Shown one piece after another: positions 7,399-17,019 of a stretch of DNA of 32,387 nt (its first letter is position 1; the number at the start of each line of letters is the position of its first letter). The translations under genes were made by a program, and so were the position numbers. The notes beneath the pieces were generated by a model. It had not been told where the DNA came from. It saw only the letters and a list, made by a program, of their open reading frames with translations, and made no database searches. Source of the stretch: an uncultured Anderseniella sp. (GTDB lineage: Bacteria; Pseudomonadota; Alphaproteobacteria; Rhizobiales; Aestuariivirgaceae). The stretch covers positions 1 through 32,387 of the forward strand of contig CALHUA010000006.1 of assembly GCA_938039915.1 (NCBI GenBank). The letters run 5' to 3'.

Positions 7399-8307
7399 TT
7401 GGCCCGCCTGCCAGCCCTGAATGCATTGAAGGCATTTGAAGCCTCCGGCCGCCACCTGAACTTCCGGCTGGCGGCTGAGGAAGTCGGCGTCACCCAGGGT
7501 GCCGTTGCCCAGCATGTGCGCGCGCTGGAAGCCGACTTTCAGGTCAAACTGTTCGACCGCCTGGCCAGAGGGCTGGCGCTGACCGAAGAGGGCCGCAAAT
7601 ACCATGCACCCGTGCAGCGGGCCTTTGACCTGATACGTGATGCGACCGACGACCTGCGCCCGCAACAAGGCGTGGTGACCATCTCCGTCACGCCGTCTTT
7701 CGCGACGAAATGGCTGGTGCCGCGTCTGGCGAAATTCACCGATGCCAATCGGGACCTGAATGTGCAGATTGTGGCATCACCTGAACTGGCCAACTTCCAG
7801 GATGACGGCATTGACCTTGCAGTCCGCCAGGGCCATGCCCCAAAAGGGTCTGGCCTGGTTTCGGCGGCATTGTTCCCATCTGAGTTTTATGCCGTCTGCA
7901 GCCCTGCCCTGCTGGAAGGAAACCATCCGCTGCTGACGCCGGAAGACCTTGACCACCACACCCTGTTGCTCGACGGGCACGGGCTGTGGCCACTGTTTAT
8001 CGAAGAGGTACTTACCGGCAAGCCGATGCCGACGTATCGCACCATCAAGTTCAGCCAGACCGCCCATGCGGTCGACGCGGCACTTGCCGGTCAGGGGGTG
8101 GCACTTGCCAGTGATCTGTTCGTCGCCGATGAACTGACCTCAGGCAGACTGGTCCGGCCATTTCCGCAGACGGTACAAAAGGATCTCGGATTTTTCATCG
8201 TGGCTCCGCGCAAAACAAGGAATGCCGTCTCGGTCAGCCGAATGTGGGACTGGCTGATCGAGCAAAGCCGTACCGAACCCTCCGGTCCGATGGACGGGTC
8301 AGCGTGA
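7399..8307 (+). CDS. LysR-family transcriptional regulator (GcvA-like)
   Basis: The 302-aa protein starts at TTG behind GCGGAGAG. Residues 5-65 form the winged HTH of the LysR family (ALKAFEASGRHLNFRLAAEEVGVTQGAVAQHVRALEA pattern), followed by a type 2 periplasmic-binding-like effector domain starting at about 92 (VTISVTPSFATKWLVPRL). The LPALNALKAFEA opening and the TKWLVPRLxxF motif are typical of the GcvA subgroup, members of which regulate amino-acid or beta-lactamase genes. Its effector is unknown. The divergent SDR gene with a candidate LysR box between them is the likely target. Confidence 0.92.
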   Translation: MARLPALNALKAFEASGRHLNFRLAAEEVGVTQGAVAQHVRALEADFQVKLFDRLARGLALTEEGRKYHAPVQRAFDLIRDATDDLRPQQGVVTISVTPSFATKWLVPRLAKFTDANRDLNVQIVASPELANFQDDGIDLAVRQGHAPKGSGLVSAALFPSEFYAVCSPALLEGNHPLLTPEDLDHHTLLLDGHGLWPLFIEEVLTGKPMPTYRTIKFSQTAHAVDAALAGQGVALASDLFVADELTSGRLVRPFPQTVQKDLGFFIVAPRKTRNAVSVSRMWDWLIEQSRTEPSGPMDGSA

Positions 8308-8578
8308 CAGGAATTCGCTGGATGATCTCAACAACACCATTTCTTGACGTCCTGTATGTCGCAGTTAGGTGGTGCGCAGTTTCAGCTGTTCTTGGGACGG
8401 GCCGTGCGTCAGGAGGCTTGCGTCTGTTCCGCCGTTGCAGCCTTGCTTTTGGATGTCACCATAACGTCAGTTGACGAACAATGCTGCCGTGGAGAAAAAC
8501 TGTTCTGCAAGTTTGTGATCAACGGATAGGCGGCACCATCTGCCATCCGGAACACTGCAGCCAGTCCAAGGACCGCAA

Positions 8579-11105: not shown

Positions 11106-11558
11106 TCAGGCTCGTTCGTCCTTGGGCGACGCCATCACGATATGGGAGGTGATACTGCTCACCTGCGACACCATACCCAGCACTTCGGTGTGAAAGTGCT
11201 TGTAGGCAGCCAGGTCAGCAACCTCGATGCGCAACAGATATTCGACAGTTCCCGAGATGGAGTGGCATTCACGTACTTCCGGCGCGTTTGCCATGACCTT
11301 TTCAAATTCGACCTGGTCGGACTTCAAATGACGCGACAGGCCGACGGCCACCATCACCACAAAACCACCGCCGAGCACTTTCCGGTTCAGAACAGCCCGA
11401 TAACCTAGAATTGTGCCGTTTCGCTCAAGTTCCTGAACACGCCTCAGGCACGCTGAAGCTGAAAGCCCGACCTTGCGCGCAAGTTCGATATTTGTGAGCC
11501 GCCCATTGCGTTCCAGCTCGCGCAATATTGCCCTGTCAATTTTATCTAATTCGCTCAT
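11106..11558 (-). CDS. Lrp/AsnC-family transcriptional regulator
   Basis: The 150-aa protein has the typical family plan: an N-terminal winged HTH (LDKIDRAILRELERNGRLTNIELARKVGLSASACLRRVQELE) and a C-terminal RAM/AsnC ligand domain (from about 65; VMVAVGLSRH, VRECHSISGTVEYLLRIEVADLAAYKHFHTEVL). Such proteins form octamers that bind amino acids. It is divergent from a LysE-type exporter with a 73-bp gap containing repeated ATTGCRC half-sites, the classic arrangement of an amino-acid-sensing regulator and its exporter. It probably controls both genes. Confidence 0.95.
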   Translation of the reverse strand: MSELDKIDRAILRELERNGRLTNIELARKVGLSASACLRRVQELERNGTILGYRAVLNRKVLGGGFVVMVAVGLSRHLKSDQVEFEKVMANAPEVRECHSISGTVEYLLRIEVADLAAYKHFHTEVLGMVSQVSSITSHIVMASPKDERA

Positions 11559-11620: not shown

Positions 11621-11636
11621 ATCATTGCGCAATGAT
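11621..11636. promoter_or_regulatory. 16-bp perfect palindrome over the lysE start (putative Lrp-type operator)
   Basis: ATCATTGCGCAATGAT is a perfect 16-bp palindrome that includes the ATG of the exporter gene. CATTGCGC occurs again 22 bp upstream and a related ATTGCAC about 41 bp further, at roughly helical-turn spacing, as expected for an Lrp/AsnC multi-site array. Confidence 0.6.
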
Positions 11637-12243
11637 TACGCTTGACCTCACCATTGCCCTTGCCGGATTTGCCTTTGTCTCTCAGATCTCACCGGGACCC
11701 AATAATTTCATGTTGATGGCTTCAGGCATGAACTATGGATGGCTCCGAACACTGCCGCATATGCTGGGAATTGGGCTCGGCTTCCCGGTTATGGTCGTCC
11801 TGGTCGGACTGGGCGTTATGCAAGTGTTTGACATCGTTCCGTACAGCTTCAATGTCTTGCGGATATTGAGCGTGGCCTATCTTGTCTATCTGGCCTGGAA
11901 GATCGCGACGGCGCTGCCAGCAGACACTGATAGCATCAGCGAAAACACCCGGCCACTTTCATTTATCCAGGCTGCGGCATTTCAATGGGTTAACCCGAAG
12001 ACATGGGCGATGGCAGTAACCGCCATCACCGCTTACTCACCACCCGAGCGGTCACTGACCAGCGTGTTCTTCATCGCACTGGTTTTTGCGGTCATCGGAA
12101 CCGTGACAATCAACTCGTGGACCATGCTGGGACGGCAATTGCGGCACCTGCTTCGAACGCCCGCGGCCTATCGCAGCTTCAATATCTGTTGTGCGCTGGT
12201 GCTGGTGATGTCGGTATACCCGCTGCTGACCAGGAGCATGTAG
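11632..12243 (+). CDS. LysE-family amino-acid exporter, Lrp-linked
   Basis: The real start is the ATG at 11632 (MITLDLTIALAG), giving 203 aa; the track ORF runs upstream through the regulatory region. Features are the first-helix motif ISPGPNNFMLMASGMNYG with intact PGP, about six hydrophobic segments, and the central AAAFQWVNPKTWAMAV motif of the family. It belongs to the RhtB/LysE superfamily of efflux carriers for amino acids. The divergent Lrp/AsnC regulator suggests induction by the exported amino acid. It differs clearly from the LysE at 4676-5287, so the two are not recent duplicates. Confidence 0.92.
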   Translation: MITLDLTIALAGFAFVSQISPGPNNFMLMASGMNYGWLRTLPHMLGIGLGFPVMVVLVGLGVMQVFDIVPYSFNVLRILSVAYLVYLAWKIATALPADTDSISENTRPLSFIQAAAFQWVNPKTWAMAVTAITAYSPPERSLTSVFFIALVFAVIGTVTINSWTMLGRQLRHLLRTPAAYRSFNICCALVLVMSVYPLLTRSM

Positions 12244-12338: not shown

Positions 12339-12626
12339 ATGTCACTGACAATTGTTGCACAGATCACAGCGGTTCCGGGCAAGGAGGCACTGGTGCGAAG
12401 TGAGCTGGAGAAACTCGTGGACATCACCCGTGCGGAAAATGGCTGCGAGCAATACGACCTGCACCAGGATAACGAGAATCCGGGTCTGTTCCTGTTTTAT
12501 GAAAACTGGACAAGCCGCGACCTGTGGCAACAACACATGGGTGCCCCGCATCTGGCGGCTTATGCGGCAGCAACCGAAGGTGCGGTCAGTAATTTCGTCC
12601 TGAATGAGATGACCAGGATCGCCTAG
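12339..12626 (+). CDS. ABM-domain monooxygenase (putative quinol monooxygenase, YgiN-like)
   Basis: From the ATG at 12339, behind AGGAAA, the product is 95 aa, the standard size of a single antibiotic-biosynthesis-monooxygenase (ABM) domain. The dimeric ferredoxin-like pattern is clear: AQITAVPGKEALVRSELEKL, then TRAENGCEQYDLHQDNENPGLFLFYENW and a final HLAAYAAATEG helix. Proteins of this kind oxidise quinols without cofactor, or degrade heme or polyketides; the substrate is not evident. The stop codon shares CTAG with the stop of the convergent azlD gene. Confidence 0.88.
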   Translation: MSLTIVAQITAVPGKEALVRSELEKLVDITRAENGCEQYDLHQDNENPGLFLFYENWTSRDLWQQHMGAPHLAAYAAATEGAVSNFVLNEMTRIA

Positions 12627-12925
12627 GACATGAATGAAAAGGCTGCTGCTGTAACTATACCACCAGACATGGCGATAAGGGGGTTTTTGAATGCAAGCAT
12701 AGTGATGCTCGCGACGGTAACTGCAGCAGCAACCCGCAAATCGCCACTGGCGCATTCAGACACCACGATCGCGACCAGCACGGAAGACGCCATCGCCTTC
12801 AGGATGGCTTCCAGGCGTGGGGTCAGGTCAAACAGGCTCATGAGCTCTGATCCGGCAACCCGGGTTGCATAGACAATCAGCCCCATCAAAATGATGATGA
12901 AAAATCCATACAGGCTAGCGTCCAT
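12623..12925 (-). CDS. azlD: AzlD-family branched-chain amino-acid export subunit
   Basis: The 100-aa protein is a small membrane protein with three to four hydrophobic segments (FFIIILMGLIVYATRVAG, ILKAMASSVLVAIVVSECA, AAAVTVASITMLAFKNPLIAMSGGIVTAA). The YATRVAG start region and the LPxxxxALKYV-like segment in altered form fit the AzlD family, the small partner of AzlC in branched-chain amino-acid export. Its start overlaps the end of azlC by 11 bp, implying coupled translation. Its stop lies on the stop of the convergent ABM gene. Confidence 0.88.
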   Translation of the reverse strand: MDASLYGFFIIILMGLIVYATRVAGSELMSLFDLTPRLEAILKAMASSVLVAIVVSECASGDLRVAAAVTVASITMLAFKNPLIAMSGGIVTAAAFSFMS

Positions 12926-13622
12926 GGATTAATCCGCCAACGGCACCGCCAGCCATAGCCGCGCAGACGATGTTCCATCCCGGCGGGAGAACATGCATAC
13001 CAGTGATCGCAATGAGCGCAGCCATGATCGCCGGCAGCCAGGTCCGGGCACCTTCCCATTCGCTACCCCACCCGGCCAGCAGCAATGCGGCAAAGTATGA
13101 AGGCATCAGAACATCGATGCCGAAGCGGTGCAGGTCACCAAAGGCCTGGCCAATGACCACACCAATTGCGGTGCCGATGATCCATGCCGCCCACAGGACC
13201 AGTCCTCCCCCGACCAACCTGCCAATGTCGCTCTCGCCATTTTGAAATGCGTTCCTGCAATCTGCAAAATTCGGATCACTCAACATTGTGAGGGCTGCAA
13301 GCCGTTGCGGGCGATTGAGCTTGTTGACCCAGGGCGACAGGGATGCGCCCAACAGAATGAAGCGTGCGCTTACCGCAAGCACCACCAGCAACAGCGAGAT
13401 GGTGGATGCAGACGACCACAATTCCAGCGATGCAAACTGTGCCGCACCAGAGAATACAAAGACACTCATGGTGACAGCGTGTGCGGCCGACATGCCACTG
13501 TCTATTGCCGCCGCACCGAACGCCATTCCGTATGGAACGATGAACAAAGCCAGGGCAAACATTTTGCGCATGCCCCTGCGGATACCGCGAGCGGACAACA
13601 GAATTTCACTTGTCACCAGCAC
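12915..13622 (-). CDS. azlC: AzlC-family branched-chain amino-acid export subunit
   Basis: The 235-aa protein starts at GTG 13622 behind AAAGGA. It has the AzlC pattern: VPYGMAFGAAAIDSGMS, then VFVFSGAAQFASLELWSS, AVSARFILLGASLSPWV and late hydrophobic segments including AALLLAGWGSEWEGARTW. AzlC with AzlD forms an exporter of branched-chain amino acids and analogues in the inner membrane. It is divergent from a CGNR/ABATE regulator with 85 bp between, and that gap carries two copies of a 17-bp dyad. Confidence 0.92.
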   Translation of the reverse strand: MLVTSEILLSARGIRRGMRKMFALALFIVPYGMAFGAAAIDSGMSAAHAVTMSVFVFSGAAQFASLELWSSASTISLLLVVLAVSARFILLGASLSPWVNKLNRPQRLAALTMLSDPNFADCRNAFQNGESDIGRLVGGGLVLWAAWIIGTAIGVVIGQAFGDLHRFGIDVLMPSYFAALLLAGWGSEWEGARTWLPAIMAALIAITGMHVLPPGWNIVCAAMAGGAVGGLIHGR

Positions 13623-13638
13623 GGTTGAATTCCTTTAT

Positions 13639-13655
13639 AACCATCACAAGGGTTA
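13639..13655. promoter_or_regulatory. Putative operator site 1 (AACC-N8-GGTT dyad)
   Basis: AACCATCACAAGGGTTA is an inverted repeat inside the longer TTATAACC-N8-GGTTATAA (13635-13658). It lies between azlC and the CGNR gene, just upstream of the azlC start. Confidence 0.6.
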
Positions 13656-13680
13656 TAATATTCACCGTCACTTGCGAGTC

Positions 13681-13697
13681 AACCATAACAACGGTTA
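13681..13697. promoter_or_regulatory. Putative operator site 2 (AACC-N8-GGTT dyad)
   Basis: AACCATAACAACGGTTA matches site 1 at 15 of 17 positions and begins exactly 42 bp later, about four helical turns. It lies just ahead of the CGNR gene start. Confidence 0.6.
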
Positions 13698-13707
13698 GAA
13701 TTGAAGT

Positions 13708-14280
13708 ATGAGCTATCAAAACCATCCGGTTCGTCTGGTAGGCGGTCGCATCTGCCTTGACTTCCTGAACACGGCCAACTGGACATCTGACGGCGCAATT
13801 GCGGACGAACGATTGGCATGTGCGCAAGACCTGGTCGCCTGGTGCACTGCGACCGGCCTGCAGGGTCTTGCCCTACCTGGCGAGGAGCGGCTGCAAAAGG
13901 ATGTGCTGGAGTTTCGCAAAACGCTTCGCACCATCGTCATAGCGGTCATTCACGGCAATCAACCGGCCACTCCGGACGTCGAGGATTTCAACAGGACCAT
14001 AACCCGCACAGAAACCTATCAACTTATGAAGCCTGCCTTACATGGACTGGCATTCGGTTCACAAACCACGTTCAGCAAAGCCATAGGCCTGCTTGCCGTT
14101 TCGCTGCTCGGCGACAACCACGAAATCAACCGTGTCAAAATGTGCCCGTCAGACAATTGCGGCTGGCTGTTTCTCGATGAGAGCAAAAACCGGCGCCGGC
14201 AGTGGTGCGCCATGGACCTGTGCGGCAACCGGGCAAAGGCGCGGCGGCACTACCAGCGGCAACAATCGAAAACGTCCTGA
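13708..14280 (+). CDS. CGNR zinc-finger / ABATE-domain putative transcriptional regulator
   Basis: The 190-aa protein has an N-terminal ABATE-type region (VRLVGGRICLDFLNTANW, then DLVAWCTATGL and the LEFRKTLRTIV helix) and a C-terminal zinc finger MCPSDNCGWLFLDESKNRRRQWCAMDLCGNRAKARRHYQR. Four cysteines in CxxxxC...CxxxxCGNR order bind zinc, with CGNR at about 174-177. Proteins of this plan are common, scarcely studied, putative stress-related regulators. The divergent azlCD genes and paired dyads in the gap make it the likely regulator of azlCD and of itself. Confidence 0.9.
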   Translation: MSYQNHPVRLVGGRICLDFLNTANWTSDGAIADERLACAQDLVAWCTATGLQGLALPGEERLQKDVLEFRKTLRTIVIAVIHGNQPATPDVEDFNRTITRTETYQLMKPALHGLAFGSQTTFSKAIGLLAVSLLGDNHEINRVKMCPSDNCGWLFLDESKNRRRQWCAMDLCGNRAKARRHYQRQQSKTS

Positions 14281-14316: not shown

Positions 14317-14742
14317 TTACGCAGCAACCGCTTCGCGCAACGTGCCAAAATGCCGGTCCCAGCCTGCATCTATGGCCGTCAGCAGGCCAAGCGCATCATC
14401 GCCTGCCGCTTCGAAGCCTTCATGGTGCAATGTCAACCTGGTGCCACCAAGCATCTCCTCCAGTTGCCAGGTGACGGTTGTCATGTGTCCGCCCAGAGGC
14501 TTGATGGTGAAGGTGTACTTGAGCGTCGAAGGCGGGGTCATCTCAAGAACCGAGCCCCAGCAGATTTTCTCTGTCTGGCCGTCCTCTGCCGTGCCGAGCA
14601 GGGCAAATTCCGCGCCCTCGGCCAGATCTGCATCGGCCGGATGAAACCAGATGGCGAGTTTGTCCTTTTCGGTCAGAAACCCCCACACGGTTTCGCGCGA
14701 CGCGGTGAACATGACTGTTTTTACAATCGTGGAGCTGGTCAT
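14317..14742 (-). CDS. AHSA1/SRPBCC-family protein
   Basis: The 141-aa protein has the START-like SRPBCC fold of the AHSA1 group: opening KTVMFTASRETVWGFLTEKDKLAIWF, middle strands WGSVLEMTPPSTLKYTFT and VTWQLEE, and a final helix with GWDRHFGTLREAV. These small proteins have a hydrophobic pocket, and several occur as second genes of ArsR operons. Its ATG overlaps the arsR stop by four bases (ATGA), so translation is coupled. The ligand is unknown. The convergent CGNR gene ends 36 bp away. Confidence 0.9.
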   Translation of the reverse strand: MTSSTIVKTVMFTASRETVWGFLTEKDKLAIWFHPADADLAEGAEFALLGTAEDGQTEKICWGSVLEMTPPSTLKYTFTIKPLGGHMTTVTWQLEEMLGGTRLTLHHEGFEAAGDDALGLLTAIDAGWDRHFGTLREAVAA

Positions 14743-15080
14743 TTGCTGTTTCCTTCCGCGGCTTCAACCGCTGTTTGGAGTCGGTTGAGTTTGTCATCCC
14801 AGAATGTGCTGAAGTAATCGAGCCAGCCGGCAACATCCTTCAGGGCGGCAGGCTCCAGGCGGTTGATGCGCTCGCGACCCCTTGCATGAACAGAAATCAG
14901 CCTGCCCTGTTCGAGTATGGTGAGGTGTTTTTTGACCGCCGCGCGGGTCATGGGGAAATGCCCGGCCATGTCACCGATGGTCATGTCGCCATCGCGCAAC
15001 CGGGTCAGCATTTCACGCCTGCTCGGATCGGCCAGGGCACGAAAGGCGCCCTGCAGGTCTGACGGCATGGTCTGAATCAT
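14739..15080 (-). CDS. ArsR-family HTH regulator
   Basis: I favour the ATG at 15080 (MIQTMPSDLQGAFRALADPSRREML), 113 aa, because GGAG lies six bases before it; the track start would lie in the operator. The core is a winged HTH: ALADPSRREMLTRLRDGDMTIGDMAGHFPMTRAAVKKHLTILEQGRLISVHARGRERINRL. No metal-binding CxC motif (such as ELCVCDL) is present, so it belongs to the non-metal ArsR group, often paired with SRPBCC genes. It sits beneath a 44-bp palindrome and is likely autoregulated. Confidence 0.93.
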   Translation of the reverse strand: MIQTMPSDLQGAFRALADPSRREMLTRLRDGDMTIGDMAGHFPMTRAAVKKHLTILEQGRLISVHARGRERINRLEPAALKDVAGWLDYFSTFWDDKLNRLQTAVEAAEGNSK

Positions 15081-15094
15081 GAGGTTCTCCATTA

Positions 15095-15138
15095 TAATAC
15101 CATTTGGTATCATGTATATATGATACCTTTTGGTATTA
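15095..15138. promoter_or_regulatory. 44-bp near-perfect palindromic operator upstream of arsR
   Basis: The sequence holds two 18-bp dyads, TAATACCATTTGGTATCA and TGATACCTTTTGGTATTA, each ATACC-N4-GGTAT, set head to head around TGTATATA. The whole 44 bp is nearly self-complementary, with mismatches only in the loops and centre. It lies immediately upstream of the arsR start. Confidence 0.8.
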
Positions 15139-15936: not shown

Positions 15937-17019
15937 TCACGCCGCGCGGCTGGTATGCTGAACCACCTGAGGTGCCGGGCTGCGCAGCAGATGAGCGACT
16001 GCCGGGAGAAGCTGTTCCGGGTTGATCAGGTCGTTGCGGGACAGAAGCCTCGTGCCGGTGACGGTTTCTGCTTCACGTACAGCCAGGGGCGAACAGGTCA
16101 CCATGCCGGAAACGGCAAACGGGGCCAGACCGTGCTTTTGCAAGATGGAAACGCCACCCACTGCGCCCAGAGCGTCAGGTGCGGCAAACAGGCTTGCATC
16201 AAAACGATCCTTGATGCGGCTGCTCTTCATGATTTCAGCCGTTTCAGCCTGAAATACGCCATCAGCGATTTCGACAACAACTATTTCGGCACCACGCGCG
16301 GCGGCACCGCCGACAAGGGCATCAAATCCGTCTTCGATACGCTCCAGCGGCACCTTGTAGGTGGATGCCATTCCGGCATCGGTAAAGTCGGTAACCGGCA
16401 CGCCTGCATCCAAAAAGGCATTGAAGTCTCCGAACGCACCGGTTCCGGTTGCCTTGACACCCTCCACGGCATATCCGGCCCGGCTCAGGCCATGGGCAAG
16501 ACTGACGGCCGCGGTTGTCTTACCGGCGTTCATCGACGCGCCGAACACGCCGATAACGGTTACCTGGGGCGGAATGGACGAGCCGGGAATGGCATAGGAG
16601 TCAATATTGATCACCTGGCCGTGCTTGTCTGTCAGAAGACCCAGAGGGCGCAGTCTGGTCGGCGGGGCCATCTTGTCGTGCGCAGCCTCCATACGCCCGG
16701 CAATGCCGCCGCCCGCCAGCATGTCACAACCGTCATAATCAATCTCGGCAAAGCCCTCAAACTGATCCGGCGCATAACGGTTGCCGCATACGACAACCAG
16801 CAGGTCGCCCTTGTAGCTCACCGAGTAGCGGCCTTCCGCCAGTTGCAGCTTCTTGTGCTGGCCAATGGTGTCCACCTCAACAAGCACAAGATCGCCTGCC
16901 CTGGCATTGTACAGGTCGCCGCCATAGCCCACAGCATCGCTACGGTTTACCCGTCGCGCGGTGAACGCCCATTTTGCACTGGCCGGGACGACCTTCTGAT
17001 TGAAGATGATCTGTTTCAT
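15937..17019 (-). CDS. P-loop NTPase with dethiobiotin synthetase/CobQ-like domain, unknown role
   Basis: The 360-aa protein has two parts. Residues 1-145 form a domain rich in strands (GDLVLVEVDTIGQHKKLQL, YSVSYKGDLLVVVCGNRYAP) of unknown type. From about 152 there is a P-loop NTPase: Walker A GVFGASMNAGKTTAAVSLAHGL (G160-T169), then VEGVKATGTGAFGDFNAFLDAG and the Walker B-like EIVVVEIADGVF near 250. The ATP-dependent ligase group with MinD/DTBS fold (BioD, CobQ, DUF1611-like) fits best; I do not recognise a named family. No biotin or cobalamin genes are nearby. It ends in its own terminator and appears to be monocistronic. Confidence 0.7.
   Translation of the reverse strand: MKQIIFNQKVVPASAKWAFTARRVNRSDAVGYGGDLYNARAGDLVLVEVDTIGQHKKLQLAEGRYSVSYKGDLLVVVCGNRYAPDQFEGFAEIDYDGCDMLAGGGIAGRMEAAHDKMAPPTRLRPLGLLTDKHGQVINIDSYAIPGSSIPPQVTVIGVFGASMNAGKTTAAVSLAHGLSRAGYAVEGVKATGTGAFGDFNAFLDAGVPVTDFTDAGMASTYKVPLERIEDGFDALVGGAAARGAEIVVVEIADGVFQAETAEIMKSSRIKDRFDASLFAAPDALGAVGGVSILQKHGLAPFAVSGMVTCSPLAVREAETVTGTRLLSRNDLINPEQLLPAVAHLLRSPAPQVVQHTSRAA

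Follow-up and report, generated by a model that had tools for sequence, protein, structure and literature searches.

The window, by which we mean the entire 32,387-nucleotide stretch that was analysed, comes from a draft genome of an uncultured Anderseniella sp. and contains an 85-bp gap (13623-13707) between two divergent genes, azlC on the minus strand and a gene for a CGNR/ABATE protein on the plus strand. The features at this locus are as follows:

12623..12925, minus strand: azlD, overlapping the end of azlC (PF05437, E 6.6e-12)
12915..13622, minus strand: azlC, with a GTG start and the Shine-Dalgarno sequence AAGGAA as the complement of 13630-13635 (PF03591, E 3.6e-30)
13639..13655, no strand: candidate distal operator, a TAACC-N8-GGTTA dyad (TAACCATCACAAGGGTTA at 13638-13655) lying over the azlC promoter/leader
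13654..13682, minus strand: possible azlC promoter, -35 TTGACT (complement of 13677-13682), 17-bp spacer, -10 ATTATA (complement of 13654-13659)
13672..13701, plus strand: predicted CGNR promoter, -35 TTGCGA (13672-13677), 18-bp spacer, -10 TAGAAT (13696-13701), 6 nt from the ATG
13681..13697, no strand: candidate proximal operator, AACCATAACAACGGTTA, with an AACC-N8-GGTT core, overlapping the predicted CGNR -10
13708..14280, plus strand: CGNR/ABATE regulator of 190 amino acids, with an ATG start (PF11706, E 3.1e-19; PF07336, E 8.6e-13)

The identities that an earlier note had assigned to these proteins agree with Pfam. AzlC and AzlD form an adjacent, overlapping pair with PF03591 and PF05437 matches above cut-off, and the regulator consists of an ABATE domain and a zf-CGNR finger, with scores above the curated cut-offs for both PF11706 (68.9 bits, cut-off 24) and PF07336 (49.5 bits, cut-off 24.4). 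The family names of AzlC and AzlD suggest that the substrates of the exporter are branched-chain amino acids. The zinc finger of the regulator spans residues 142-185, with cysteines at C146, C151, C167 and C172 and the CGNR sequence at 172-175; these four cysteines, G173 and N174 are invariant in 35 aligned members, and R175 is nearly so. The AlphaFold2 model of the protein (pLDDT 93.6) has a sole significant match in the PDB, 3h0n (Foldseek E 2.1e-7, TM about 0.62), which is the only solved family member we found. 3h0n is Jann_2411, an ABATE and CGNR zinc-finger protein from Jannaschia sp. CCS1, and is a dimer with a treble clef of the DNA-binding type and a deep cavity at the interface, proposed to be a transcription regulator (PMC2954205). 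The window protein has the same two-domain fold, but Jann_2411 has CQNR in place of CGNR and no reported DNA target, whereas the window protein is paired with azlCD and with defined candidate operators.

The gap contains exactly two copies of AACCATnACAAnGGTTA, at 13639-13655 and 13681-13697, both with 0 mismatches to AACCATNACAANGGTTA and 42 bp apart from start to start, as the earlier note had claimed in describing two 17-bp sites between azlCD and the CGNR gene. The two copies (AACCATCACAAGGGTTA at 13639-13655 and its counterpart at 13681-13697) match at 15 of their 17 positions. When the 85-bp gap was subjected to 2000 dinucleotide shuffles, neither a 15/17 direct repeat nor a pair of AACC-N8-GGTT dyads was obtained even once (0/2000 for each). 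The proximal dyad is asymmetric beyond its core (GTCAACC...GGTTAGAA), and some of this asymmetry must be promoter.

Within the 3.37-Mb draft genome, no site outside the gap matches with fewer than 2 mismatches, and each of four further matches has 2 mismatches to the full pattern. A wider regulon was considered and rejected; since these near-matches stand at 2 mismatches and a looser pattern gave fewer matches than its reversed control, we claim no additional targets. The absence of other close copies in the genome fits a local regulator. Two more AzlC-domain matches occur in the same genome 0.6 kb apart (G000 C44:6924-7340 and 7930-8349), and the one of these that was examined has neither a CGNR neighbour nor a dyad.

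Homologous loci were gathered by protein similarity, and the DNA motif played no part in their selection; they were found by an alignment-based scan of contigs, while a scan with a single protein as query gave none. The earlier note named as one refutation a lack of conserved dyads in relatives that share this gene pair, and the dyads passed: a perfect AACC-N8-GGTT precedes the CGNR gene in all 35 divergent azlC-CGNR loci, which are from Alphaproteobacteria, and a second dyad precedes azlC in 32 of the 35, the distal dyad being absent by a strict test in the remaining 3. The proximal dyad is 25-27 bp before the CGNR ATG in 34 of the 35 loci and 53 bp before it in the other (L051). With up to 1 mismatch allowed, TAACC-N8-GGTTA is found in 43/43 upstream regions of CGNR genes in the near group, compared to 0.1% of 1632 control windows. 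The CGNR proteins of the divergent azlC-CGNR loci are ∼35-80% identical to that of the window, and thus the dyads stand out from diverged flanks.

The distance between the two dyads is more variable than had been proposed. The earlier note had described sites exactly 42 bp, or four helical turns, apart; this holds for the window and its nearest relative, but not across 37 loci, in which the distance is 39 bp (5 loci), 40 bp (15, the commonest), 41 bp (1), 42 bp (7) or 43 bp (9). This range corresponds to about 3.7-4.1 helical turns, with no set number, and rules out a fixed four-turn spacing as a conserved feature.

Both dyads are placed on sequences that resemble promoter elements. Most of the proximal dyad falls within the 18-bp spacer of the predicted CGNR promoter and enters its -10. 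This overlap with the -10 is invariant in 41 loci, for which the consensus on the CGNR side is TTG-N3-GTC-AACC-N8-GGTTAGAAt. In the logo of these loci, the three positions of the -35 TTG are found in 38, 38 and 34 of 41, GGTTAG in 40-41 of 41, and the GTC at 13678-13680 in 39-40 of 41, and in 37 of 41 the distance from the first A of AACC to the ATG is 26-27 bp. TTGnnn together with TAGAAT can be read as a sigma-70 type CGNR promoter, and since the -10 would then be only 5-6 nt from the ATG, the CGNR mRNA is probably leaderless. On the other strand GTCAA reads TTGAC, plausibly the azlC -35. The azlC -35 candidate thus lies within the proximal operator and its -10 candidate at the edge of the distal operator; an alternative azlC -10, the complement of 13634-13639, lies in the outer arm, and so two placements are possible. 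The geometry of dyads and promoters suggests repression of both azlC and the CGNR gene.

Such an arrangement could in principle arise if the sequence were conserved merely as two overlapping core promoters (TTGAC and TAGAAT), with the dyad as a by-product, and the regions outside the dyad core are both promoter-like and conserved. However, AACC and GGTT are separated by N8 in 41/41 loci and lie mostly in the spacer, which sigma-70 promoters leave free. Moreover, other groups hold the half-sites one helical turn further apart, at N17-19, and azlC promoters without a CGNR gene have no dyad. We therefore regard a by-product of promoter conservation as very improbable.

If the sites belong to the CGNR protein, they are expected to follow the CGNR gene, but if they belong to another regulator of azlC, they are expected at azlC irrespective of CGNR. 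As a control we used 30 azlC loci from the same taxonomic order. In 29 of them the fetched DNA contains no CGNR gene; the remaining one, which has it, is the window. No dyad was found at any tested spacing in the 29 loci without CGNR (0/29). Conversely, twin dyads are kept at CGNR genes of the same clade in which the divergent partner is a GST (L036, L043) or a LysE exporter (L072). The absence of dyads at azlC loci without CGNR, together with their presence at CGNR loci without azlC, ties the sites to the CGNR protein.

The most obvious other owner is the Lrp/AsnC-type protein encoded at 11106-11558, about 1.4 kb from the end of azlC, with the CGNR gene as a bystander, and Lrp-type proteins govern branched-chain amino-acid export in other bacteria. 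Nevertheless, the 0/29 result and the dyads at CGNR genes without azlC are the reverse of what such ownership requires, and the half-site precedes CGNR genes in several phyla; we rejected this candidate as extremely unlikely. The suggestion of the earlier note that the sites are CGNR operators is thus supported, by conservation (35/35 and 32/35), by the azlC-only loci and by retention of the dyads without azlC, and we infer that the dyads are very probably docking sites of the neighbouring CGNR protein.

The Lrp/AsnC-type gene is on the minus strand and, with a LysE-type translocator at about 11635-12243 (plus strand), forms a second divergent pair of regulator and exporter, 0.4 kb from azlD, with a small ABM-domain gene (12342-12626) in between. 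On the other side of the locus, an ArsR-type HTH protein followed by an AHSA1/START-type protein (14317-15113), a common operon layout, is convergent with the CGNR gene, and a 360-aa protein with a P-loop-like GASMNAGKTT motif is encoded at 15937-17019, without a Pfam match at E 0.001.

The same half-sites extend well beyond the azlC-linked clade. CGNR genes of other phyla have TAACC and GGTTA upstream at N8-9 or at N17-19, one helical turn apart. Among 133 CGNR upstream regions, a gap of 8 was found in 48, of 18 in 30 and of 19 in 11, with each expected in <0.1. Outside the azlC-linked clade, where the genes are from Chloroflexota, Acidobacteriota, Bacillota, an archaeon, other Proteobacteria and Actinomycetota, the half-sites are mostly at N18 (18/38, compared to 0.1% of control windows). 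Since the initial set was where the gap of 18 had been noticed, loci fetched later served as a check. In the 55 later-fetched loci with a canonical CGN finger, 27 have a dyad at 8, 9 or 17-19, compared to 3 of 338 control windows (∼1%), and 13 have it at a gap of 18, where none were expected. By contrast, no dyad was found in the 16 later-fetched loci that encode a CQNR, CANR or CSNR finger (0/16). In a larger set, with a looser test (control rate 3.4%), 103 of 125 canonical CGNR genes have a dyad, compared to 0 of 9 altered ones, although the spacing class is clustered on the tree, such that the counts across the family are not independent and the Fisher p for this comparison overstates the evidence. 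Some of the 22 canonical genes without a dyad by this test are accounted for by a degenerate half-site, as in Kribbella.

Spacing classes cluster strongly on a FastTree tree: every member of the azlC-linked clade has N8, and the tree requires about 8 changes between short and long spacing. It is probable, although less certain than the local reading, that the whole CGNR/ABATE family, from Alphaproteobacteria to Chloroflexota, Acidobacteriota and an archaeon, reads TAACC/GGTTA via the CGNR helix, at N8-9 or N17-19 with several switches on the tree, and that specificity has changed in proteins with CQNR, CANR or CSNR. Among the divergent partners of CGNR genes at other loci are MFS and LysE exporters, GST, glyoxalase-type and DinB-type proteins, and local ligand-responsive regulators usually have targets of this kind.

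Several variants were noted in this wider set. In Kribbella (L075, L079, L091, L094, L100, L110), the gene pair is the same but the layout and half-site are different: azlC follows the CGNR gene in the same direction, and a single TAACA/TAACG-type dyad at N18-19 precedes the CGNR gene. Upstream of three actinobacterial CQNR genes (L186, L190, L197) are twin TnACT-N18-AGTnA repeats, which may be a half-site altered in step with the CQNR helix; this N18 variant is found at only 3 of the 16 altered-finger genes, by a degenerate test with a high background. Genes with a CGNK finger (L015, L016, L018, L027) have GGTTAAACC-like sequences upstream, in which the order of the half-sites is everted.

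The presence, conservation and position of the dyads, their dependence on the CGNR gene rather than on azlC, and the family-wide half-site, all of them computational observations, are jointly best explained if the CGNR protein is a dimer with the dyads as its operators, represses azlCD and itself, and is released by a ligand; we give this reading a probability of roughly 85%. Binding, dimeric recognition, repression and the ligand are the parts that we infer. Each zinc finger of the dimer would contact one of the inverted TAACC/GGTTA half-sites, which explains why the repeats are inverted. A dimer on the proximal dyad would cover the spacer between the CGNR -35 and -10, the CGNR -10 and the probable azlC -35, and one on the distal dyad would cover the azlC -10/leader. 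Since elements of both promoters would be covered, we propose that occupation of both dyads shuts off azlCD and the CGNR gene together. Export would be turned on when a ligand, perhaps the substrate of AzlCD or a toxic analogue, occupied the ABATE cavity and released the dimer.

The sign of this regulation is read solely from the overlap with predicted promoters, and the dyads could be CGNR operators for an activator or dual regulator that, with ligand bound, activates azlCD from one dyad and represses its own gene from the other. LysR-type local regulators of exporters behave in this way, activating their target and repressing themselves, and two sites 39-43 bp apart, differently placed on the two promoters, could allow opposite effects. 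However, activators usually bind upstream of the -35, whereas the proximal dyad lies within the core CGNR promoter and, under both promoter models, the distal dyad overlies the azlC -10/leader. In Kribbella, moreover, one operator stands before the co-directional CGNR and azlC genes, as fits autorepression of an operon. We thus consider activation unlikely, although less so than the other alternatives above.

Repression by the CGNR protein would resemble that by TetR/MarR-type autorepressors, in which a small dimeric regulator is divergent from an exporter, has dyads over both promoters and has few or no other targets, but here the regulator is a treble-clef zinc finger rather than a helix-turn-helix protein and its sensor is the ABATE domain. 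Similarly, Lrp/AsnC- or AzlB-type regulators control AzlCD/BrnFE exporters of branched-chain amino acids. The likeness is in a neighbouring regulator and the same kind of transporter; the differences are in the regulator family and in the lack of the dyads at azlC loci without CGNR.

CGNR/ABATE proteins occur in several phyla, and we found one solved structure, none of a CGNR finger with DNA, and, in the open-access papers searched (for CGNR, ABATE and DUF1470), the structure paper and passing mentions, with no operator or other DNA target described for the family. With a conserved operator and a defined half-site, these ‘possible regulators’ would become open to testing by gel shift, and the target of each CGNR member could be read from the adjoining sequence. 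For azlCD, it would provide a concrete set of regulator, operator and target in Alphaproteobacteria. If correct, two spacing classes that differ by one helical turn would be a clean case of a flexible dimer adapting to the distance between half-sites, and the half-site would amount to a testable DNA code for the family.
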